DNA from: Labia minor
Lineage: Eukaryota > Arthropoda > Insecta > Dermaptera > Spongiphoridae
Direction of reading: 5' to 3'
DNA length: 64,000 nucleotides
Assembly (NCBI GenBank): GCA_963082975.1
Contig: OY720350.1
Location: forward strand, 17,826,910 to 17,890,909
Position numbers and translations under genes: made by a program. Shown here piece after piece: positions 3,901-60,352 of the stretch. The notes below the pieces were generated by a model. It was not told where the DNA came from. It searched no databases and saw only the letters and a program-made list of their open reading frames with translations. How positions within the stretch are numbered: the first letter of the stretch is position 1; each line of letters opens with the position of its first letter.

Positions 3901-4327
3901 TACTATCTCGCCAGAGATAGTATTGTAATCACGAAAATTTTGATGTTGAGATTTTGATATTTTGAATCGTTTTGGACGTTCCTGAATCATTTTCACTAAG
4001 GCTGAGAAAAGTGTCTGTCTCTCTCTCTCTCTCTCTCTGTGTGTGTATGTGTATGTAGACAAGATTACGCAAAAACGGTTTGAACTAGAATCATGAAATT
4101 TGGTAGATGGGCATTATTCAAAATTCGTAGTTTAATTAATTTTTTAATACTGCAAATCTCACGCGCCAACACGTGCCATGGTGCCATCAATAAAAAGCCA
4201 AACATGCGCTGGTTTAATATTTATTATTTATAATTTATAATTAATTAAATTTAATTTAAATATAATATATTATGTTATTTAATCCAATTCAAATTGCGAG
4301 ATAGTCGAGTGGAGACACTCCAGCTTA
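3901..4327 (+). mobile_element. family A HINE-like element, internally deleted copy (A1a)
   Basis: Has both family A ends: the 5' hairpin ACTATCTC-GCCA-GAGATAGT and the 3' end GCGAGATAGTC plus stem-loop GAGTG-GAGA-CACTC. The microsatellite is here CT then GT repeats (about 4017-4056). Middle sequence is missing between about 4130 and 4140 compared with the copy at 59229. Its 3' end runs straight into a second, 5'-truncated copy. Confidence 0.85.
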
Positions 4328-4652
4328 TTTTTCCTCTAAAGTGACCGTAAAAATAAAGATATATGTTTGATAATTTTTCACATGATTAATAATTGTATAA
4401 AACTGCTATATATAGAATTTCAGCTTGATTGAATCGCTGAACTTACCAGAATTAATTATTTAACACTGCAAATCTCACGCGCCAACACGTGACATGGTGC
4501 CATCAACAAAGAGCCAAACATGCGCTGGTTTAATAAATATTATTTATTAATTTTAATTTATAATTTATAATTAATTTAATTTAATTTAAATATAATATAT
4601 TATGTTATTTAATCCAATTCAAATTGCGAGATAGTCGAGTGGAGACACTCTA
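4328..4652 (+). mobile_element. family A, 5'-truncated second unit (A1b)
   Basis: Begins at the internal T-run TTTTCCTCTAAAGTGACC of family A, immediately after the 3' end of A1a, and runs to an intact 3' stem-loop ending at 4650. The same kind of junction occurs in family B at 20133/20134. Confidence 0.85.
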
Positions 4653-4739
4653 GTATATATATTCTCTTATTTTACTAAAATAAATAAAAATAATTTTAAA
4701 ACAATTGGATGTTCAAAAAAGTAGCAAATACTATCTAAT

Positions 4740-6110: not shown

Positions 6111-6392
6111 TACTATCTCGCCGATAGTTTTTTCTCATTATTAAAAATTGTATAAAACTGCTATATATAGAATTTTAGCTTGATTGAATTGCTGAAAGTA
6201 CCAGAATTAATTTTTTAACACTGCAAATCACGCGCCAACACGTGACGTGGTGCCATCAACAAAGAGCCAAACATGCGCTGGTTTAATATTTATTATTTAT
6301 AATTTATAATTAATTAAATTTAATTTAAATATAATATATTATGTTATTTAATCCAATTCAAATTGTGAGATAGTCGAGTGGAGACACTACAG
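6111..6392 (+). mobile_element. family A, internally deleted copy (A2)
   Basis: The 5' start TACTATCTCGCC is joined after about 20 bases directly to the 3' half (AAAAATTGTATAAAACTGCT onward). The microsatellite and middle are lost. The 3' hairpin is kept except for its outermost base pair. Confidence 0.85.
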
Positions 6393-9692: not shown

Positions 9693-9727
9693 TAGATGTT
9701 TTGTAAAATATTTGACATTGTGTTTTT

Positions 9728-10313
9728 TACCGACCGACAATAGTAAGGGAGGTATTGTTTTCACACCAATTTTCACATGTGGAGATTTTTACATATCTCC
9801 ACGAATCATGCATTTTGTTAACGGAAAAAAGTATTTTTAGCATGATGTCTGTTCGTCCGTCCTTCTGTCCGACACAACGGATTTTGATCAAATTCGGTTG
9901 TATATTTACTTAATGCATCAATATGATGAATTGATCTTTGGGTGTACATCCGGAAACCGGAAGTGGTAGTATTATCGATCAACGATAGAAAGGGAAGGGT
10001 TATTTTCACACCAATTTTCACATGAGGAGATTTTTTTACATATCTCCACGAATCATGGACTTTGCATTGGCTTTATCCTCAGGCAAAATCATCTTCATTG
10101 GTTTTTTCTTAATTTAAAATTATATGACGTCACAGCCAGCGCCTCCTTATATATTATAAATAAAATAAAATATAAAATATTTATGTTATATCCATATCTG
10201 TTTTTTATTGCATTAATAGATATATTAAAATTATTTGAAATTGTTTCTGTAGCTGGAAATTAATTTATTTCAAACCGTCGGTCTGTTCTGTGCCTGGCCA
10301 CATGTCAACTTAT
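9728..10313 (+). mobile_element. family B HINE-like element, full length
   Basis: Starts TACCGACCGAC after a T-run and carries a short GTCCGTCC region. Both internal direct blocks are present (TTCACACCAATTTTCACATG at about 9761 and 10003). Ends AAACCGTCGGTC and CTGTG-CCTGGC-CACAT, one mismatch from the hairpin consensus. The minus-strand 67-codon frame here is a by-product of the repeat. Confidence 0.85.
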
Positions 10314-11589: not shown

Positions 11590-12030
11590 TTATGTTAGTG
11601 ATTGGTTTGTAGAATAGCAAATTTGAACGGAAGTTTGACCAACTGAAGTGAAATTAGGAATTAGGGTTAATTGTGTCTTTAGGGTTATAGAAAGACCCCC
11701 TTTTCCCTTAAGTAATTGGCAAGCGGTCGCTGCGGGGAACCCGAAACTTCAGAACAGGGGTAGTTCAATCGTCACCCCATACTCACTGTACTTTTTGGGG
11801 AACTTTTGACAGAGATGTGCTTGACAATATCAACAGGCCCCGAAGGCGTATGTGCATACATCCATCCATGCACGCGGATGGATTGCATTTATCCAAAGGG
11901 CTGGAAGATGCTCACAACACACGTGACCTCATTTTCTACACGCAAAATCAAAAACAAATATTCCTTCCTAGATGAAAGCGTATTTTTGGGGGGGGGGGGG
12001 GTGATATCTTTCCAATTGACTTGACTCTAT
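11590..12030. other. less AT-rich single-copy island with poly-G run
   Basis: Unique sequence. It has an inverted repeat TCCATCC-atgcacgc-GGATGGA at 11861-11882 and a run of 14 G at 11988-12001. A 72-codon frame at 11806-12024 ends in the Gly codons of the poly-G run and has no recognisable domain. Confidence 0.35.
11988..12001. repeat. poly-G run (14 G)
   Basis: Rare in such AT-rich DNA. It may be polymorphic or an assembly weak point. Confidence 0.85.
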
Positions 12031-13872
12031 ACAATTTAAATTCTATGATTCGACAATAATAATATAAATATCATTTGTCCCTTAAACGGATTTGAAAAGA
12101 ATACAAGGGAATGATTGTAAGAAAAAGATAAAAATAACTAAAAAAAAAATGAATCATCTTCAATTAATTATATTTTTTTTTATTAGTTTCTTGATAATAT
12201 ATGATGATTTCGATTTTATCTTTCACAAATACATCTCTTTATTTATTTTTTTATTTTATCTTTAAAAAAAAAAAATCAACGAAATTGGAATTCAAAAAAA
12301 AGAAAAAGGCATTGGAATAAATTCTTAATGTATCCATTTCAGTGTAAAGCAAGTAAAGAAAATATATTCTTAAAATTTCATTTCTGATTCCCTTCTCGTT
12401 TTCTTACTAGCAAGCAAGCAAATAAATTAGTATTATATTTTCAAGGAAGCTCTCTGGCATTTTTATTCGCATTCTGTTTTAATATATGTTTAACAAACGC
12501 CCCCTTGGCTATCTCTTCGTTGTCAGTGCCATTTATGATCTCCCAATAAATGTACACATATCTAAATCTACTATGCAAAGGAAAGAGATTCCCTCCAACC
12601 GTTCCAAGAGCTAATGGTTTATTCACTTGGATGATTTTTAAAACCTTTGAAAAATATATAATATTAAATCAAATAAGGGGAATTTCTTCCTATCCTTTCA
12701 TGTTTCAAATAAAAATCAAAATGTCATTTGTCTTTTTTTTTTACCTTGATTTATTTATTATTAATTAGCAAATAAAATAATTTAAAAAAAAAAAAAAAAT
12801 TTAAAAGTTAATTTAAAGAATCAAAAACTATTTATTTGAATGTAAAAACTGAAAATTACACCCACTAACTATGCATGCAATGTTAACCGTTATTCTGATT
12901 ACTGATCTAACTACTCGGAAAAAATGAAAATATGTCATTTCAAAAATGAAAGCTAGTTAGAATTTTTAAATAAAATTTATTTTTGAAAATTTGCAATCAT
13001 TTTAAACTCAAATTTATTATAATTTAGAGAAATTTCCATTTCTATTTCTTAATAAAACATATAATAAAAATGTATTTTGTAATTTAAATATATAACAGTT
13101 AAATAAATAATATTAAAATGACAAAAGTAGAAGATAAATACTAGCTCGTATATAGTAAAAATAAATAAATTGAGAGAGAGAGAGAGAAGAGATAGAGCAA
13201 AATAAATTGACAATTTTATTGAAATCAAAAATAAACTACTATTTTTGAATATCAAATATAACATTCATTTTTGATTTGAATTTATTAATTAAAAAGAAAA
13301 ATTATTTACAAATAATACAATAAATTAATTTAAAATATTATGATTATATATAAAAGTCCTAATGTATCATTGCGTAACCACATAAGTTGGCCACATGACA
13401 TTAGATGGCGTCTTTCGACTTGTCTTTCAAAAAAACAAAATTATTCTATAAATAATAATTTGATTTTTATGTGTTTTAAAAAAATGTTAATTGAAACTAG
13501 ATTTCGTATTGTATATATATTATATATATATATATGAATTTGTTGATAAATTAGTTCTTATTATTATATTTATCGATAATTTTTATTTTTCAATATTATG
13601 GATTAATATAAACTATTATATTATTATATTATATAAGTTTTATTTGTTATAAAATAAATAATATATTACTATAATTATTAAAATAAAATTTTTAATCAAA
13701 TATTAAATTATTGGATTTTTATTTAAATTATATATTTATATATAAACACAGGCAACAGCTCAAAGATTAGCGCAACCAACAAATGTCAATATTAAACATG
13801 AATTTATCGACAAAAGAGATCGTTTTTTTAATTTTTTAATATCCACGAGCAGAACAACTTCAAAACAAAAAT
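12031..13872. other. AT-rich stretch, no gene seen
   Basis: Small frames at 12441-12768, 13049-13264 and 13340-13537 are low-complexity and overlap on opposite strands. A GA microsatellite lies at about 13171-13187. No repeat family recognised. Confidence 0.55.
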
Positions 13873-14506
13873 AAGTTGACCTGTGGCCAGGTCCGAACCG
13901 ACCGACTGTTTGAAGTAAATTAATTTCCAGCTACAGAAACAATTTCAAACAATTTTAATATATCTATTAATGTAATAAAAAACAGATATGGATATAACAT
14001 AAATATTTTTAATTTTATTTTATTTATAATATATGTATATATTTATATGTAAGACCAGGTAACGTCATGAATGGCTGGATGACGTCATATAATTTTAAAT
14101 CAAGAAAAAACTAATAAATATGATTTTCCCGAGGATAAAACCAATACAAAGTGCATGATTCGTGGTGATATATAAAAAAATCTCCTCATGTGAAATTTGG
14201 TGTGAAAATAACCCTTCCCTTCCTATCGTCAATCGCTAATACTACCACTTCCGGTTCACGGATTTGCACCAAAAGTTGATCAATTCCTCCCACTGATGCA
14301 TTAAGTAAATATACCAAATTTCATCAAAATCGGTTGAGCCGTTCAGGATGTACACATCTATACGGACGGACAGACGGACGGACAGACATCATGCTAAAAA
14401 TACTTTTTTCTGTTTAGAAAATGCATGATTCGTGGAGATATGTAAAAATCTCCACATGTGAAATTTGGTGTGAAAACAATACCTCCCTTACTATCGTCGG
14501 TCGGTA
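13873..14506 (-). mobile_element. family B HINE-like element, full length
   Basis: Inverse orientation: begins AAGTTGACCTGTGGCCAGG (the family 3' end) and ends with CGTCGGTCGGTA, the inverse of the 5' end. A CGGA/CAGA microsatellite lies at about 14360-14389. The 3' stem-loop is degraded on one arm (GGAC instead of GTGC). Confidence 0.85.
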
Positions 14507-14597
14507 ATTAAAGAAAACTCCGCTCAAGGCAGATTACTAAAATAATGATCATTAGGTATACGAAAAATATTGTTTTCAAAGGACTATTTAATTAATT

Positions 14598-15870: not shown

Positions 15871-16439
15871 TGTTGACCTGTGGCCAGGCACAGAACCGAC
15901 CGACGGTTTGAAATAAATTAATTTCCAGCTACTGAAACAATTTCAAATAATTTTAATATATCTATTAATGCAATAAAAAGCAGATAGGCATATAACATAA
16001 ATATTTTATATTTTATTTTATTTATAATATATAAGGAGGCGCTGGCTGTGAAGTCATGAAGATGATTTTTCCCAAGGATAAATAAAACCAATACAAAGTG
16101 CATGATTCGTGGAGATATGTAAATAATCTCCTCATGTGAAATTTGGTGTGAAAATAACCCTTCCTTTTCTATCGTTGATCGGTAATACTACCACTTCCGG
16201 TTTCCGGATATACACCAAAAGTTGATCAATTCATCATATTGATGCATTAAGTAAATATACTACCAAATTTTATCAAAATCTGTTGAGCCGTTCAAGCTGT
16301 ACACATCTATACGGACGGACAGACGGACGGACGGACAGACATCATGCTAAAAATACTTTTTTCTGTTAACAAGATGCATGATTCGTGGAGATATGTAAAG
16401 AATGTGTGAAAACACCTCCTTTACTATCATCGGTCGGTA
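15871..16439 (-). mobile_element. family B HINE-like element, full length
   Basis: Both ends present in inverse orientation. The terminal hairpin CTGTG-GCCAGG-CACAG is intact. Uninterrupted CGGA/CAGA repeats lie at about 16312-16340. Small deletions occur near 16050 and 16400. Confidence 0.85.
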
Positions 16440-17037
16440 AAAAGATATATTTTAAATCTATTTAAATAAAAAAAATAACATTTTAATTTCTTGCTAATTT
16501 CTACTCTATAAATCGGAAAGATATAATAATTTAACTTATAGTAGGTATAATAAATATTATTATTATTTTATAATTATTTAATTGATTATTTAAAAAATTA
16601 AAAATAGAAGTTGTTTTTTAATTTATTCTTGACCAATTAATCTAGCTAAATGATTATTAAAGTCAAAAGACCAAACCTTACCAAATTTAAGAATTTAATC
16701 AATAAAAATTATAAATTTTAAATAAAAAAATTTATTTGATTTCATTTATTTCATTTAATAAACATAAATAAAAGAATATTTAAAGAGATTTACATGAATT
16801 TAATAATTCCGTAGATAAATAAATTTAATTTTTAGATAATATTTTTGCGTATAATTATATCTATAGAGGTGTGTTAAGAATTTAATTATATAGTCCGAGA
16901 AATGCAATGTTTTTTTTTATGTATTTTTAATTACAGCTTATATTCATACTTTAATACATATATTATATCATAAAAATTTATTATTAATTAAAAATAATTC
17001 TTCTTCTGTTTTTTAATGTATGTTGAATTAAAATACC
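16440..17037. other. AT-rich stretch, no gene seen
   Basis: Poly-A/T-rich, no repeat family or frame recognised. Confidence 0.55.
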
Positions 17038-20133: not shown

Positions 20134-20767
20134 AAGTTGACCTGTGGCCAGGTCCGAACCGACCGACGGTTTGAAGTAAATTAATTTCCAGCTACAGAAA
20201 CAATTTCAAATAATTTTAATATATCTATTAATGTAATAAAAAACAGATATGGATACATAAATAATAAATATAAACATTTTTAATTTTATTTTATTTATAA
20301 TATATATGCAAGACCAGGCTGTGACGTCATGAATGGCTGGATGACGTCATATAATTTTAAATCAAGAAAAAACTAATAAATATGATTTTTCTCGAGGATA
20401 AAACCAATACAAAGTGCATGATTCGTGGTGATATATAAAAAAATCTCCTTTGGTGTGAAAATAACCCTTTCCTTCCTATCGTCGATCGCTAATACTACCA
20501 TTTCCGGTTTCCGGAATTGCACCAAAAGTTGATCAATTCATCCCACTGATGCATTAAGTAAATATACCAAATTTCATCAAAATCGGTTGAGCCGTTCAGG
20601 CTGTACACATCTATACGGACGGACAGACGGACAGACGGACGGACAGACATCATGCTAAAAATACTTTTTTCTGTTAAGAAAACGCATGATTCGTGGAGAT
20701 ATGTAAAAATCTCCACATGTGAATTTTGGTGTGAAAACAATACCTCCCTTACTATCGTCGGTCAGTA
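20134..20767 (-). mobile_element. family B HINE-like element, full length (B6)
   Basis: Complete copy in inverse orientation, with both internal blocks, a CGGA/CAGA microsatellite (about 20616-20648) and the 5' end at GTCGGTCAGTA. Its 3' end is fused to an internal T-run of the copy at 19846. Confidence 0.85.
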
Positions 20768-21159
20768 GAAATGAATATATATATATATAAACATTCAAAA
20801 AAGATTATCTTCAAGTAGATATCAACAATTTTAATAATTAATATTTATTCTAAAATAAACGCTTAATTATTTAATAAATTATACTTATATTTTAATGCAA
20901 TTATTCGTAATATATTCTAAATGAAGCCATTATTATTTTTATATTTCATTTAAAATTAATATTGAAAATTTGCATATTCAATAAATATATTAATGATATA
21001 ATAGAGTCCTTTAATCTTTTGTCTTTTATTTTCAATTTATCATCAATATATTGATAATTGATGTTTTTTTTTAATCATTTATTTCATTTTATTTTATTAT
21101 ATTTTTATAAATAGATTCGTGACATGGATAATAAATTTCCAATAGGATTTATATTAATT

Positions 21160-29130: not shown

Positions 29131-29690
29131 GCTGGAGTGTCTCTACTCGACTATCTCGGAATTTGAATTGGATTAAATAACATAATATATTATAATAAAA
29201 TTAAATTTAATTAATTATAAATTATAAATTAAAATTAATAGATAATATTTATTAAACCAACGCATGTTTGGCTCTTTGTTGATGGCACCACGTCACGTGT
29301 TGGCGTGTGAGATTTGTAGTGTTAAAAAATTAATTCTGGTTCTTTCAGCGATTCAATCAAGCTGAAATTCTATATAAAGCAGTTTTATACAATTTTTAAT
29401 CATGAGAAAAACTATCAAACATATATCTTTATTTTTACGGTCACTTTAGAGGAAAAAAAATCAAAAAGTGGTAGGTAATGACCCTATTCCGGTTGAGCTA
29501 TATTTCTCAAAAGTTGATAAAAATTTTTTTTGATTTTTGAATTTTGAATAATGACCGTATACCAAATTTCATTCTTCAAGCTCAAACCGTATTTATACAC
29601 ACACACAGATATTTTTCTCAACCTTAGTGAGATTGATTCAGGAACCTTCAAAACGTATAAAAATATCAAAATCTGAATATGAAATTTTGT
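29131..29690 (-). mobile_element. family A HINE-like element, 5' end degraded (A3)
   Basis: The inverse 3' end GCTGGAGTGTCTCTACTCG (hairpin with one mismatch) is followed by a near-complete body. The microsatellite is reduced to CACACACACA. The last recognisable 5' sequence is near 29690, without the ACTATCTC hairpin. Confidence 0.8.
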
Positions 29691-29782
29691 GTGAATTTCA
29701 CATGATTATGGGTACATATATAGAAAAATGGATAGATATTCTATTGGTATCAATTAAAATTAATTATCATAACCAAAATGTT

Positions 29783-30792: not shown

Positions 30793-31410
30793 CTGGAGTG
30801 TCTCCACTCGACTATCTCGCAAATTTCAATTAGATTATTTAACATATATTATATTTAAATTAAATTTAATTAATTATAAATTATAAATTAATATTAATAA
30901 ATAATATTTATTAAACCAGCGCGTTTTTGGTCTTTTGATGGCACCACGTCTTGTGCTGGCGCGTGATTGCCAGTCAACGTGATAAAAAATTAATTACGAT
31001 ACTTTCATCGATTCAATCAAGCTGAAATTTTATATGTAGCAGTTTTATACAATTTTTAAGCATGTGAAAAACTATAAAACATATATCTTTATTTTTACGT
31101 TCAGTTTAGAGGAAAAAAAATCAAAACGTGGTATGTACTGACCCTCTTCCGGTTGAGTTACATTTCTCAAAAGTTAATAGAAAATTACGAATTCTGAATA
31201 ATGGTCGTGTACCAAATTTTCATCATTCTAGCTCAAACCGCTTTTGCGTAATCTTGTCTACATACACACACACACACACACAAAGAGAGAGAGACTGACA
31301 ATTTTCTTAACCTTAGTGAAAATGAATCAGGAACCTTCAAAACGTATAAAAACATCAAAATCTCGACATCGAAAATTTCTATGATCGCGAAACTATCTCT
31401 GACGTAGTAA
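30793..31410 (-). mobile_element. family A HINE-like element, full length (A4)
   Basis: Inverse 3' end CTGGAGTGTCTCCACTCGAC with an intact stem-loop. (CA)n microsatellite at about 31263-31281. The 5' hairpin is decayed to ACTATCTCTGACGTAGT. Confidence 0.85.
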
Positions 31411-35324: not shown

Positions 35325-35419
35325 TACTATCTCGCCAGAAAATTTTCGATGTTGAGATTTTGAAGTTTTTATACGTTTTGAAGTTTCCTGAATCATTTTC
35401 ACTAAGGTTAAGAAAAATG

Positions 35420-35451
<32 letters not shown>

Positions 35452-35920
35452 TGTATGTATGTGTGTATGTATGTTGACAAGATTACGCAAAAACGGTTTT
35501 TTGCTAGAAGAATGAAATTTGGCATACGGGCATTTTTTTTATTCAAAAGTTTTTCTTTTCTATCAACTGTAGGATCATTACCAACAACGTTTTGATTTTT
35601 TTTCCTCTAAAGTGGCCGTAAAAATAAAGATATATGTTTGATAATTTTTCACATGATTAAAAATTGTATAAAACTGCTATATATAGAATTTCAGCTTGAT
35701 TGAATCGCTGAAAGTACCAGAATTAATTTTTTAACACTGCAAATCTCACGCACCAACACGTGACGTGGTGCCATCAACAAAGAGCCAAACATGCGCTGGT
35801 TTAATAAATATTATTGATTAATTTTAATTTATAATTTAATTAATTTAATTTAATTTAAATTAATATATGTTATTTAATCCAATTCAAATTTGCGAGATAG
35901 TCGAGTGGAGACACTCCAGC
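35325..35920 (+). mobile_element. family A HINE-like element, near full length (A5)
   Basis: Starts TACTATCTCGCCAG; the second arm of the 5' hairpin is lost by a small deletion. CT/GT/GTAT microsatellite at 35420-35474. Ends TGCGAGATAGTC, GAGTG-GAGA-CACTC, CAGC. Small minus-strand frames over the microsatellite (His-Thr repeats) are not genes. Confidence 0.9.
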
Positions 35921-38816: not shown

Positions 38817-39092
38817 CTACTATCTCACCAGAGATTTTTGTTTTTACACGTTTTGTAGGTTCCTGAGTCATTTTCACTAAGGTTGAAAAAATGTCTGTCT
38901 GTGTGTGTGTATGTATGTTTACAAGATTACACAAAAACGGTATTGATATTATTTAATTGCCTACTAGTTTTAATAAAATGTTATCAGTAAAAATTATCTT
39001 AAAAACCTTGGAATTTTAATTAATGTTCAAATATAGAAAAAAAGCTTGATTATCCCATTCAAATTTGCGAGATAGTCGAGTGGAGTCACTCC
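38817..39092 (+). mobile_element. family A, two ends around non-family filler (A6)
   Basis: The 5' third (TACTATCTCACCAG to ACACAAAAACGG, 38817-38940) and the last 40 bp (39050-39092, hairpin GAGTG-GAGT-CACTC) flank about 105 bp of sequence not seen in other copies. Confidence 0.7.
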
Positions 39093-39114
39093 AAATTTTT
39101 CTATTATAAAATTA

Positions 39115-39747
39115 GCTGGAGTATCTCCTCTCGACTATCTCGCAATTTGAATTGGATTAAATAACATATATTGTATTTAAATTAAATTTAGTTAATTATA
39201 AATTATAAATTAAAATTAATAAATAATATTAATTAAATCAGCGCATGTTTGGCTCTTTGTTGATGGCATCACGTCACGTGTTGGCGCGTGAGATATGAAA
39301 AAGTGTTAAAAATTTAATTCTGGTACTTTCAGCGATTCATTCAAGCTGAAATTCTATATATAGCAGTTTTATACAATTTTTAATCATGTGAAAAACTATC
39401 AAACATATTTCTTTATTTTTTTCGGTCAGTTTAGACTGTTTAGAGGAAAAAAAATGAAAACGTTGTAGGTAATGACCTTCTTCCGGATGAACTTCATTTC
39501 TCAAAAGTTGATAGAAAACTACGAATTTTGAATAATGCCCATATACCAAATTTCATTATTCTAGCTCAAACGCTCAAACCGTTTTTGCGTAATTTTGTCT
39601 ACATACATACACATATATACACACACACACAGACATTTTTCTCAACCTTAGTGAAAATGATTCAGGAACCTTCAAAACGTATAAAAACATCAAAATCTCG
39701 ACATCGAAAATTTTCATGATCGCAATACTATCTCTGGCGAGATAGTA
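39115..39747 (-). mobile_element. family A HINE-like element, full length (A7)
   Basis: Inverse orientation from GCTGGAGTATCTCCTCTCG (3' hairpin with two mismatches) to an intact 5' hairpin ACTATCTC-TGGC-GAGATAGT. It lies tail to tail with the copy at 38817, only about 20 bp apart. Confidence 0.88.
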
Positions 39748-43036: not shown

Positions 43037-43639
43037 TACTATCTCACCAGAGATAGTATTGCCATCACGAAAATTTTCGATGTTGAGATTTTGATGTTTT
43101 TATACCTTTTGAAGGTTCCTTAATCATTTTCACTAAGGATGAGATAAATGTCTGTGTGTATGTGTGTATGTATGTAACCAAGATTGCGCAAAAACGGTTT
43201 GAGCTAGAATTATGAAATTTGGTACATGGGCATTATTCAAAATTCATAGTTTTCTATCAACTTTTGAGAAATGTAGCTCAACCGGAAGAGGGTCATTACC
43301 TACAATGTTTTGATTTGATTTTCCTCTAAAGTGACCGTAAAAATAAAGATATATGTTTGATATTTTTTCACATGATTAATAATTGTATAAAACTGCTATA
43401 TATAGAATTTCAGCTTGATTGATTCGCTGAAAGTACCAGAATTAATTTTTTAACACTGCAAATCTCACTCGCCAACACGTGACGTGGTGCCATCAACAAA
43501 GAGCCAAACATGCGCTGGTTTAATAAATATTATTGATTAATTTTAATTTATAATTTAATTAATTTAATTTAATTTAAATTAATATATGTTATTTAATCTA
43601 ATTCAAATTTGCGAGATAGTCGAGTGGAGACACTTCAGA
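43037..43639 (+). mobile_element. family A HINE-like element, full length (A8)
   Basis: 5' hairpin ACTATCTC-ACCA-GAGATAGT, GT/GTAT microsatellite at about 43151-43174, and 3' end with a one-mismatch hairpin (GAGTG/CACTT). Confidence 0.9.
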
Positions 43640-43703: not shown

Positions 43704-44205
43704 TACTATCTGGCTAGAGATAGTATTGCCATCACGAGATGTCGAGATTTTGATGTTTTTATACGTTTTGAAGGTCCCTGAGTCATTTTCACTAAGATTG
43801 AGAAAAATGTATGGGTATATGTAGACAAGATTACGCAAAAACGGTTTGAGCTAAAATAATGAAATTTGGAACACGAGCATTATTCAAAATTCGTAGTTTT
43901 CTATCAATTTTTGAGAAATGTAGCTCATCCTACCACATTGAACATTTTTGAACTGACCATAAAAATAAAGTTATATGTTTTTCACTTAATTAAAAATTTC
44001 ATAAAACTGGTATATATAGAATTTCAGCTTGATGAAAGTACCGGAATTAATTTTTTAACACGTTGACTGGCATCACGCGCCAAAGAAGCGTTGTTCTAAT
44101 AAATATTATTTATTAATTTAATTTATAATTTATTTTAAATATAATATAATATTATGTTATTTAACCCAATTCAGATTGCGAGATAGTCGAATGGAGACAT
44201 TCCAG
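43704..44205 (+). mobile_element. family A HINE-like element, diverged copy (A9)
   Basis: Starts TACTATCTGGCTAGAGATAG and ends GCGAGATAGTC, GAATG-GAGA-CATTC, CAG. The middle base pair of the 3' stem is A-T here instead of G-C: both arms changed, so pairing is kept. Very short microsatellite. Flanked by ATTTTT on both sides, a possible target match. Same orientation as the copy at 43037, 64 bp away. Confidence 0.85.
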
Positions 44206-50480: not shown

Positions 50481-50978
50481 TTTATGAAATACCAAGTTTT
50501 TCTAATAAATATTGAACTAATGTGACAAGCACAGGGGAAGATTTTCATAAAAGTGTTGATGCTATATAAATGCGGTATGTAAATATTACATAACACCTTT
50601 GTGGTTACTAGACATTGAAAAGTATTTTATAAGCACAAAAAAAAAATATTCTTTTAATAAACGAAGCGGTAGAATGAAATTAAATGATATTAAAAAGAGG
50701 AAGATAATCTTAGATATTAACATGTGAAATTAAAAATTAGATTTTTAATTAAATGTTTTAGCATCTAAGAATTTTGTACTTATAATTCAACTCTAAATGA
50801 AAAATAAAACAAGTTTTAATATTTTTTTATTAAATAGAATAATTTTTAATCAAAAATAAATTAATTATAGATTATCAAATAATTATTTATAATTTTAAAT
50901 GAAAATATATCAATGATCCATCCAAAAATCTACTTCATCCAAGTATAGGCTAAATATTTCTGCTATAATGTCAAGTGG

Positions 50979-55293: not shown

Positions 55294-55940
55294 TACTATC
55301 TCACCAGAGATAGTAATGCGATCACGAAAATTTTCGAATGTGAGATTTTGATGTTTTTATACGTTTTGAAGGTTCCTGAATCATTTTCACTAAGGTTGAG
55401 ATAAATGTCTGTGTGTATGTGTGTATGTATGTAACCAAGATTGCGCAAAAACGGTTTGAGCTAGAATTATGAAATTTGGTACATGGGCATTATTCAAAAT
55501 TCATAGTTTTCTATCAACTTTTGAGAAATGTAGCTCATGAGGGTCATTACCTACAATGTTTTGATTTATTTTCCTCTAAGAGTGACCGTAAAAATAAAGA
55601 TATATGTTTGATAATTTTTCACATGATTAAAAATTGTATAAAATTGCTATATATAGAATTTCAGCTTGATTGAATCGCTAGAATCATGAAATTTGGTATA
55701 CGGGCATTATTTAAAGTTTGTAGTTTTTTATCAACTTTTGAGAAATGTAGCTCAACCGGAAGAGGGTCATTACCTACAACGTTTTGATTTATTTTCCTCT
55801 AAGAGTGACCGTAAAAATAAAGATATATGTTTGATAATTTTTCACATGATTAAAAATTGTATAAAATTGCTATATATAGAATTTCAGCTTGATTGAATCG
55901 CTGAAAGTACCGAAATTAAATTTTTAACATTGCACTCCAG
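55294..55940 (+). mobile_element. family A with internal tandem duplication, 3' part deleted (A10)
   Basis: Intact 5' hairpin and GT/GTAT microsatellite (about 55409-55431). The block from the GAATTATGAAATTTGG motif to GATTGAATCGCT is present twice (about 55462-55678 and 55682-55902), joined at GCT. The AT-rich 3' part and the GCGAGATAGT repeat are missing, leaving only CACTCCAG at the end. Confidence 0.85.
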
Positions 55941-57611: not shown

Positions 57612-58651
57612 TGGTATTTGTTTACAAAAACGGAAGTTTCAGAGATTTGGATTTGGATTTCGCCAGAGATAGTATTGCGATCACGAAAATTTTCGATATC
57701 GAGATTTTGATGCTTTTATACATTTGGAAGGTTCCTGAGTCATTATCACTAAGGTTGAGAAAAATGTCTGTGTGCGTATGTATGTATGTGTGTATGTATG
57801 TAGTCAAGAACGGTTTGAGCTAGAATAATGAAATTTGGTACACGGCCATTATTCAAAATTCGTAGTTTTCTATCAACTTTTGAAAAGTGTAGCTCAACCG
57901 GAAGAGGGTCATTATCTACAACGTTTTGATTTTTTTTCCTCTAAAGTGACCGTAAAAATAAAGATATATGCTTGATAGTTTTTCACATGATTAAAAATTG
58001 TATAAAACTGCTATATATAGAATTTCAGCTTGATTGAATCGCTGAAAGTATCTGAATTAATTTTTTAACACTGCAAATCTCACGCGCCAACACGTGACGT
58101 GGTGTGATCAACAAAGAGCCAAACATCCGCTGGTTTAATAAATATTATTTATTAATTTTAATTTATAATTTATAATTAATTAAATTTAATTTAAATATAA
58201 TATATGTTATTTAATCCAATTCAAATTTCGAGATAGTCGAGTGGAGGCACTCCAGCTTATCTAATTCCAAAGTAACTTTCTTTATGGAATATTTATAGTT
58301 AGGAACGTTCAAATGACCAATTATTTAGTAATGTTTTATTAACTAATTCACTAGTTTTTCACTTATTCACTGATTGTTGGTCTTTTCGATTAGATTTAGA
58401 TATAGGAAAATTATTTAATTAATTATGTTTTTAAATTCCCTATATCTAAACCGAGCTGAAGAAACCTCCCCCCCTCCCGAAAATTAGTGAAGCTCTCTAC
58501 TGGCCAAATGAATAAAACATTATAAATATGGTAGCTAAACGTCAATGGATTTTTAAAAAAAGCTAATTTAAGTCATATGGAATTAAAAAAGGAATTTACT
58601 GGTAAAGTTTTATCCAAATCTCTGAAGCTTCCGTTTTGTAAACAATTACCA
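57612..58651. mobile_element. MITE M carrying a nested family A copy
   Basis: About 38-bp terminal inverted repeats: left TGGTATTTGTTTACAAAAAC, then GGAAGTTTCAGAGATTTGGAT; right end read in reverse TGGTAATTGTTTACAAAACG, then GAAGCTTCAGAGATTTGGAT. Family A sits directly inside the left repeat. No target duplication was recognised, so the superfamily is open. Confidence 0.65.
57655..58256 (+). mobile_element. family A HINE-like element (A11), nested
   Basis: Starts at CGCCAGAGATAGT with the first arm of the 5' hairpin lost. GTAT microsatellite at about 57767-57801. Complete 3' end with hairpin GAGTG-GAGG-CACTC (changed loop, intact stem). Confidence 0.88.
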
Positions 58652-59060: not shown

Positions 59061-59170
59061 AATTATATAGTCTATTTCTATTTCTTATTCATTACATTAA
59101 ATTATGATGATATTCATGGAGTTGTAATATTTTTTTTTTCCAATAATTAAATTAAACAGTATAAAAATAT

Positions 59171-60025
59171 AGGGTAAATGTACCAGAAGTTGACCACTGT
59201 ACCAGCAATTGACCATTTGATAGATTTTTACTATCTCGCCAGAGATAGTATTGCGATCACGAAAATTTTCGATGTTGAGATTTTGATGTTTTTATACGTT
59301 TTGAAGGTTCCTGAATCATTTTCACTAAGGTTGAGAAAAATGTCTGTGTGTGTGTGTGTATGTGTGTATGTGTGTGTGTATGTGTGTGTGTATGTATGTA
59401 GGCAAGATTACGCAAAAACGGTTTGAGCTAGAATGATGAAATTTGGTACATGGACATTATTCAAAATTCATAGTTTTCTATCAACTTTTGAGAAATGTAG
59501 CTCAACCGGAAGAGGGTCATTACCTACAACGTTTTGATTTTTTTTCCTCTAAAGTGACCGTAAAAATAAAGATATATGTTTGATAATTTTTCACATGATT
59601 AAACATTGTATAAAACTGCTATATATAGAATTTCAGCTTGATTGATTCGCTGAAATTACCAGAATTAATTTTTTAACACTGCAAATCTCACGCGCCAACA
59701 CGTGACGTGGTGCCATCAACAAAAAGCCAAACATGCGCTGGTTTAATATTTATTATTTATTATTTATAATTTATAATTAATTAAATTTAATTTAGATATA
59801 ATATATTATGTTATTTAATCCAATTCAAATTGCGAGATAGTCGAGTGGAGACACTCCAGCTAATTTTATCAAAATAGGCTTTTTAATTTCAAATTAAGCA
59901 CGAGATATCGATAAATATCAAAAAAGGGCCTCTCCCAGATTGCTTAAACAATGAAACAGAGAAATTAAAAAGCTTATTTTGATAAAAAAATCTATCAAGT
60001 GGTCAACTACAGGTACGTTTGCCCT
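59171..60025. mobile_element. palindromic MITE L interrupted by a family A copy
   Basis: Left AGGGTAAATGTACC, right end read in reverse AGGGCAAACGTACC. Both arms continue through TTGACCA.TTGATAGATTTTT and TTTTATCAAAATA.GCTTTT, so the element was a near-complete palindrome of about 220 bp. In the left arm the family A copy at 59229 separates GATTTTTA from TTTTATC. The superfamily is not determined. Confidence 0.75.
59229..59860 (+). mobile_element. family A HINE-like element, best-preserved copy (A12), nested
   Basis: Full family layout: ACTATCTC-GCCA-GAGATAGT; CGAAAATTTTCG palindrome; GT/GTAT microsatellite (about 59345-59399); GATGAAATTTGG motif; ATATATAGAATTTCAGCTTG; CACGTGACGTGG; AT-rich block; GCGAGATAGTC; GAGTG-GAGA-CACTC; CAGC. 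The uninterrupted other arm of MITE L shows the target as a T-run followed by ATC. No coding capacity; an 82-codon frame across it is low-complexity. Confidence 0.92.
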
Positions 60026-60352
60026 AAATTATTGTTGGTAATTATTATTTATCATTTTTTCTCATTTATTTATAAAAATGTAATATTTACAACTTTCCTC
60101 TATGAGTAATTATATAATGAATATACAACAGCAATAATAATTAGAGTATAATAAATATACTATAGTTCATCATTTAGACAAATTCATAAACAACTTATTA
60201 TTAATAAATTATGAATTTTAATTAGTAATATAAGATTATAAAATATGAAAAATATTGAATAAACTATAAAAAATAATTAATTATTATTTTGATATCTTCA
60301 TAAATATATTTTATAAACATGTTAATTGCAAGTTTCTGATATCTTATTTCAG

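Follow-up and report, generated by a model that had tools for sequence, protein, structure and literature searches.

The 64,000-nucleotide stretch of Labia minor DNA analyzed here (hereafter the window) contains a short repeat, family A, whose reference copy at 59229..59865 raises two questions: what kind of mobile element it is, and which element supplies the proteins that move it. A preliminary description of the window had interpreted it as a HINE/DINE-1-like element associated with Helentrons. A search of the genome (604 Mb, 71 contigs) supported this interpretation through a Helentron that has both family A ends and through the T-run target, and refined it in the position of the 3' end and in the gain of two T at the insertion site. 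We are highly confident that family A belongs to the non-autonomous Helentron-associated elements (HINEs) and that it joins the 5' head of an endonuclease-encoding rolling-circle transposon to the last 38 bp of that transposon.

Structure of the reference copy

Conservation was scored in 26 full-length copies, of which 22 came from 20 fetched places (a non-random choice from the listed matches) and four from the window; those at L009 and L010 have common flanks and are not independent of each other. The features of the reference copy are as follows.

59229..59865, plus strand: reference copy of HINE family A; the insertion adds a net 636 bp (ACTATC...CAGCTAA and two T of ambiguous placement)
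59230..59249, plus strand: 5' subterminal palindrome ACTATCTC-GCCA-GAGATAGT, from pattern search and folding; exact in 24 of 26 full copies
59230..59239, plus strand: 5' subterminal inverted repeat ACTATCTCGC; its inverse lies at 59832-59841
59341..59399, plus strand: GT/GTAT microsatellite
59823..59860, plus strand: terminal 38 bp, identical to the Helentron 3' end by sequence alignment
59832..59841, plus strand: 3' subterminal inverted repeat GCGAGATAGT; GAGATAGTCGAG is retained in 25 of 26 full copies
59843..59856, plus strand: 3' stem-loop GAGTG-GAGA-CACTC; exact in 23 of 26 full copies
59861..59865, plus strand: conserved TAATT extending the 3' end; TAA belongs to the element, and the Ts to the element or the target

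The 5' hairpin, the microsatellite and the short 3' stem-loop had all been named in the preliminary description and are present at these positions. The word GAGATAGT, which was said to recur inverted by the 3' end, is found again there at 59834-59841. The hairpin is stable for its composition (-7.5 kcal/mol for a 42-nt stretch with DNA parameters, z -3.66, none of 200 shuffles as good), and its pattern, allowing at most two mismatches, occurs seven times in the window versus zero in 100 shuffles. By folding energy the 3' stem-loop is unexceptional (z -1.41, 20 of 200 shuffles as good; 23 of 200 for a 36-nt stretch), and the 24-base 3' motif, with at most three mismatches, occurs 12 times in the window versus zero in 100 shuffles. 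An open-frame scan found the reference copy to be without coding capacity, as had been claimed for 59229-59860; the longest frame over it, 82 aa, begins outside the element and crosses the microsatellite. Exact patterns of the family A ends (25 and 29 bases) gave no matches in viral_contigs.

One point of the earlier picture had to be corrected. The element had been said to end 3-4 bases past the stem-loop; we place its 3' end a few bases farther out, at about 59863-59865, because TAATT follows CAGC in 21 of the 26 full-length copies and empty sites assign TAA (59861-59863) to the element.

Copies in the window

The earlier count of twelve copies or part copies in 64 kb was reproduced; an AT-rich match at 50829-50899 (E 5e-6) was left out of it. 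Besides the reference copy, they are:

3901..4653, plus strand: composite copy with two 3' ends
6129..6392, plus strand: part copy
29131..29694, minus strand: old copy
30793..31404, minus strand: old copy
35338..35920, plus strand: copy with a 5' end starting about 20 bp farther upstream
38831..39093, plus strand: internally deleted copy with a 5' end starting about 12 bp farther upstream
39115..39747, minus strand: full copy, 86% to the reference
43037..43638, plus strand: full copy, 89% to the reference
43704..44205, plus strand: old but full-length copy (71% to the reference), in series with the 43037 copy (65 bp downstream, same orientation)
55294..55934, plus strand: copy with 5' end and duplicated interior; its 3' part is unaligned, with CTCCAG directly after
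57657..58256, plus strand: copy, 88% to the reference

In the three older full copies of the window, conservation is higher over the terminal 25 and 38 bp than over the body, for example 92.0 and 89.5% versus 65.7%. Among young copies elsewhere in the genome, namely L017 and two of the three in L026, the 3' end is no better kept than the body.

Recent amplification and tandem copies

Across the genome, near-full copies at 98-100% identity number at least 41 (41 of the 50 listed matches). Copy numbers are lower bounds throughout, since 40 candidates each were scored out of 408 and of 554 first-look candidates. L001-L008 were excluded from the counts as wider cuts of places already in the window or in L009-L015. 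The maximal score over 632 bp was reached by at least four listed matches, including the window copy, and six copies of 640 bp share 99.5-100% mutual identity. These matches and identities therefore point to a recent amplification of the family.

Several copies adjoin one another. In L026, three copies lie head to tail, each 3' end joined to the next 5' end via a few bases, and in L023 and L019 a family A copy abuts another. Such tandems fit rolling-circle copying beyond the terminator, and they fit equally repeated insertion into T-runs beside an old copy.

Target site and element boundaries

At least five T precede ACTATC in 22 of the 26 full-length copies, versus 1.3% of plus-strand positions in the window; the exceptions are two window copies with two T and two tandem copies with three. 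Among the matches listed, three clean empty sites revealed insertion into a T-run that added two T net, the target being otherwise unchanged, in agreement with the T-run insertion proposed earlier. All three were counted by hand on the alignments. The reference copy has nine T in the filled site versus seven in the empty one; its control is the opposite inverted end of the MITE-like repeat that hosts it. At L025 ten T are found versus eight, some older comparison copies differing in the T-run and eight T being the commonest state among the matches listed, and at L024 seven T stand versus five bases (TCTTT); both of these insertions sit in another family A copy. Further empty-site candidates, belonging to the 39115 copy of the window and to L011, L017, L019, L022, and L023, were discarded as ambiguous, too diverged, or self-matches; among them, the L022 candidate (74% alike) would give a gain of one T.

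Comparison with empty sites, which the preliminary description had proposed for defining the ends, thus fixed TAA as part of the element and the net gain as two T. The two extra T are ambiguous: a TT target duplication and Ts owned by the element are indistinguishable. A similar ambiguity between duplication and element is given for HINEs in the available text of PMC4067079. Target-site duplications of fixed length, named earlier as evidence that would speak against a HINE, were not seen beyond these ambiguous two T at the three empty sites. As a separate observation, window positions 59169-60030 consist of the family A copy within one inverted end of the MITE-like repeat, whose ends start AGGGTAAATGTACC or similar.

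A Helentron carrying both ends of family A

A profile search of the genome with Pfam Helitron_like_N gave 104 matches. One of the elements found, on the minus strand of C1 from 47874778 to 47862612 (12,167 bp), is a Helentron with an open stop-to-stop frame of 2,181 residues. This frame contains DUF6570 (45.5 bits), Helitron_like_N (84.6 bits), and PIF1 (109.8 bits), so that Rep and helicase lie in one frame; we take PHEH and YVLKYVSK to be the HUH and two-Tyr motifs of Rep. A later part of the protein matches Exo_endo_phos_2 with 22.7 bits as a piece and 19.0 in the whole protein, below the Pfam cut-off of 27.4. The match is C-terminal to the helicase, which is the place expected for an AP-type endonuclease. 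The motifs YQNINSL, FAETL, GDFNIN, QIDIVLS, and CYHKP, presumably those of an AP-type endonuclease, occur there in order, and part of the region is matched in another Helentron family of this genome; the endonuclease piece gave no match in a search of solved structures. Among forward frames of 70 aa or longer, none was noticed that would encode RPA.

In a Rep/helicase tree of eight proteins, all from this genome, this protein and that of a second family (L068, about 51% identical) split from group III and from canonical-type Helitrons with support 1.000. Since the tree covers proteins of this genome only, the assignment to Helentrons is based on the endonuclease fusion and the element ends.

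The preliminary description had proposed looking for a Helentron coding element that shares the last 30-40 bp of family A. The C1 Helentron, with its open frame, is identical to family A in its last 38 bp (38/38) and 96.5% identical in its first 516 bp, and these shared ends stand in the same order and orientation, spanning 12,167 bp. Directly after the 516-bp head follows a second copy of a stretch equal to family A 307-543 (92.8%). Pieces of the partner at 77% protein identity or more were found at four loci. A decayed copy on C10 (37195384 to 37187935, about 7.45 kb) carries both ends around the same coding region, the 5' end over 275 bp at 80% and the 3' end over 44 bp at 91%. A further copy (copy 2) has the exact family A 3' end, with 241 bp that are 99.2% identical to the first Helentron, to the same last base. 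In total, the family A 3' end is present in 3/3 Helentron copies read on the 3' side, and the 5' end in 2/4 read on the 5' side (C1 and C10).

Family A is composed of about 540 bp of the Helentron 5' head, an AT-rich joint of about 50 bp, and the last 38 bp. It is best read as an internal-deletion derivative of the 12,167-bp Helentron, and judging from the common ends the C1 Helentron is likely to be its autonomous partner. Family A is well supported as a putatively new family of a known kind of element.

Portions of the Helentron outside its gene match other repeats of the window. One of these repeats (20238-20772, 13977-14507, 1093-1583, 9724-10206, and 16065-16443) corresponds to positions 1881-2446 of the Helentron, in which it is probably nested. 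Two further observations were made elsewhere. In L075 (1766-2362), a 3' fragment of the Helentron (11795-12131) passes into family A-like 5' sequence at the common word TTACTAT, as if by a template switch. In L071 (836-963), 128 bp are common with Helentron 813-936; short pieces of this sequence also occur in L059, L060, and L065, and it may be a nested Helitron derivative.

Alternative origins of family A

Short, non-coding elements with many near-identical copies and inverted words at both ends are also what a MITE of a cut-and-paste (DDE) transposon would look like, the inverted words then being its terminal inverted repeats. In family A, however, these words lie inside the termini at unequal distances, 1-3 bases at one end and about 22 at the other, and no constant target duplication accompanies them, except possibly TT. 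No DDE-encoding partner was noticed, and such a partner was set aside on finding both family A ends on the Rep/helicase Helentron, by which this reading is largely refuted, and we regard it as very improbable. Still more improbable is derivation from a canonical Helitron, which would have 5' TC, 3' CTRR, and insertion between A and T. Open-frame Helitrons of canonical type do exist in this genome and family A has a hairpin close to its 3' end, but it starts with ACTATC behind a T-run and finishes with GCTAA in front of Ts, which largely refutes this origin. Moreover, the canonical-type Helitrons aligned as candidate partners, groups I (L059, L060, and L065) and II (L061 and L062), have quite different ends: 3' ends were read in L059, L060, L061, and L062, and they resemble those of Helitrons, not that of family A. 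Pieces of family A near the L060 Helitron sit 0.1-0.8 kb past its 3' end and are neighbours, not its termini. In group III (L063, L064, and L067) no family A end was found in the stretches read, and L063 has no second frame of at least 200 aa.

A different possibility concerns the 5' link, which is based on two Helentron copies. The family A sequence that precedes the Helentron gene could be a separate HINE nested there, in which case the two elements would be connected by the last 38 bp only; family A would still be a HINE with the same 3' terminator, its 5' end differing from that of the Helentron. HINE copies are dense in the window, the C10 copy matches just 275 bp at 80%, and a family A 5' end is absent from the stretches read of two other copies: copy 2 has no family A in the 1.1 kb read on its 5' side, its Helentron match starting only from position 813, and the copy on C60 has no such end in the 5.5 kb read. 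Against this, two Helentron copies, C1 and C10, have the 5' terminus of family A ahead of the frame and in matching orientation, and both are without a family A 3' end between that terminus and the gene. A nested, 3'-truncated HINE in this place is conceivable once but less so twice, and we consider this explanation unlikely. Descent of family A from both ends of the Helentron is thus the reading adopted here.

Two groups of Rep-helicase elements in the same genome were observed alongside. The canonical-type Helitron family of L035-L041, L043, L059, and L060 has a 1,652-aa frame in at least five listed matches and one and the same score in at least seven; because the frame and the score recur, this family has probably been active in the recent past. 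Over 3.7 kb, L059 and L060 agree at 99.9%. The group III family (L054-L057, L063, and L064) has frames of 1,345-1,785 aa, and L064 is interrupted by a 4.6-kb stretch with identical direct repeats of 1,059 bp, likely an LTR retrotransposon.

A peptidase-like region in the partner

The C-terminus of the Helentron protein matches Peptidase_C48 with 19.9 bits, just below the cut-off of 20.7, and the C-terminal region matched SENP8 with an E-value of 0.004. In the alignment to SENP8, residues 2082-2138 contain GHW, FDSLN, and QQNNYDCG, which places motifs with H, D, Q, and C in order. The last ~140 residues are retained at 97% and 77% in two further Helentron copies; in two other Helentron families, L076 and L077, the portions read gave no sign of the region. 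Because the Pfam score lies just under the cut-off, we present the putative Ulp1/SENP-like region as a lead, and it may be the less ordinary part of the partner.

Helentrons with VTD or OTU deubiquitinases are described in the available text of PMC9741609. We see an even chance that the partner is a new Helentron variant, in which one frame of 2,181 residues would unite Rep, helicase, and endonuclease with a working deconjugating peptidase of Ulp1/SENP type, the third ubiquitin-family peptidase type to be taken up independently, beside OTU and VTD. No fusion of Ulp1/C48 with a Helentron was announced in the portion of the literature searched, most subscription journals lying outside it. If confirmed, the peptidase-like region would add weight to the view that a ubiquitin-type peptidase is of repeated benefit to Helentrons, as proposed for VTD and OTU in the accessible part of PMC9741609.

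Proposed mechanism and significance

In the model of Helitron and Helentron transposition, an HUH/Tyr protein nicks the DNA, a helicase drives strand displacement, and a hairpin at the 3' end stops the process. By analogy with these elements we infer the biochemical steps for family A, and also that this particular protein moves it; the observations that the steps would have to explain are the common ends, the domains (the endonuclease as a weak match), the T-run target, the two-T gain, the head-to-tail tandems, and the near-identical copies. The Helentron protein would nick the T-rich boundary, probably through its Rep (HUH) domain and possibly with the AP endonuclease. The helicase would then peel off one strand as it is copied, copying would halt at the 3' hairpin, and the displaced strand would be joined into a T-run without a staggered cut. 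Nicking of the target by the endonuclease is proposed in the available text of PMC4067079, which in 2014 also called for biochemical studies of how Helentrons transpose.

With an open-frame Helentron and at least dozens of near-identical short derivatives with exact ends, this single genome offers a matched pair. Its fresh copies and clean empty sites make it a useful test system, in which the gain of two T is a measurable prediction.

Comparison with known systems

The HINE/DINE-1 elements and Helentrons described in the available text of PMC4067079 resemble family A in several respects. Their subterminal inverted repeats begin within a few bases of the 5' end, a palindrome stands by the 3' end, some copies contain a microsatellite, and the targets are T-rich, with two or more T on either side and no target-site modification; HINE/DINE-1 elements are, like family A, deletion derivatives of elements encoding Rep, helicase, and endonuclease. 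On the other hand, mite HINEs have a subterminal repeat of 12-15 bp at 38-60 bp from the 3' end according to the same source, whereas that of family A measures 10 bp and lies about 22 bp from the 3' end. The partner differs from the Helentrons of PMC4067079, as far as the available text describes them, in that no RPA frame was noticed among its forward frames of at least 70 aa and in the putative Ulp1/SENP-like region within its transposase frame.

Among canonical-type Helitrons of the same genome (groups I and II), the helicase motifs, like PH-x-H and Y-x3-Y of Rep, can be aligned with those of the partner, but these elements have another 3' hairpin and a CTAA or CTAG-like end, and are without family A ends of their own. 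The VTD and OTU Helentrons in the accessible part of PMC9741609 are like the partner in having a cysteine peptidase alongside Rep, helicase, and AP endonuclease, if its C-terminal region is indeed one. This C-terminus weakly resembles Peptidase_C48 and SENP8, with the order H, D, Q, C, whereas VTDs, according to the same source, have an Asp-x-His motif.
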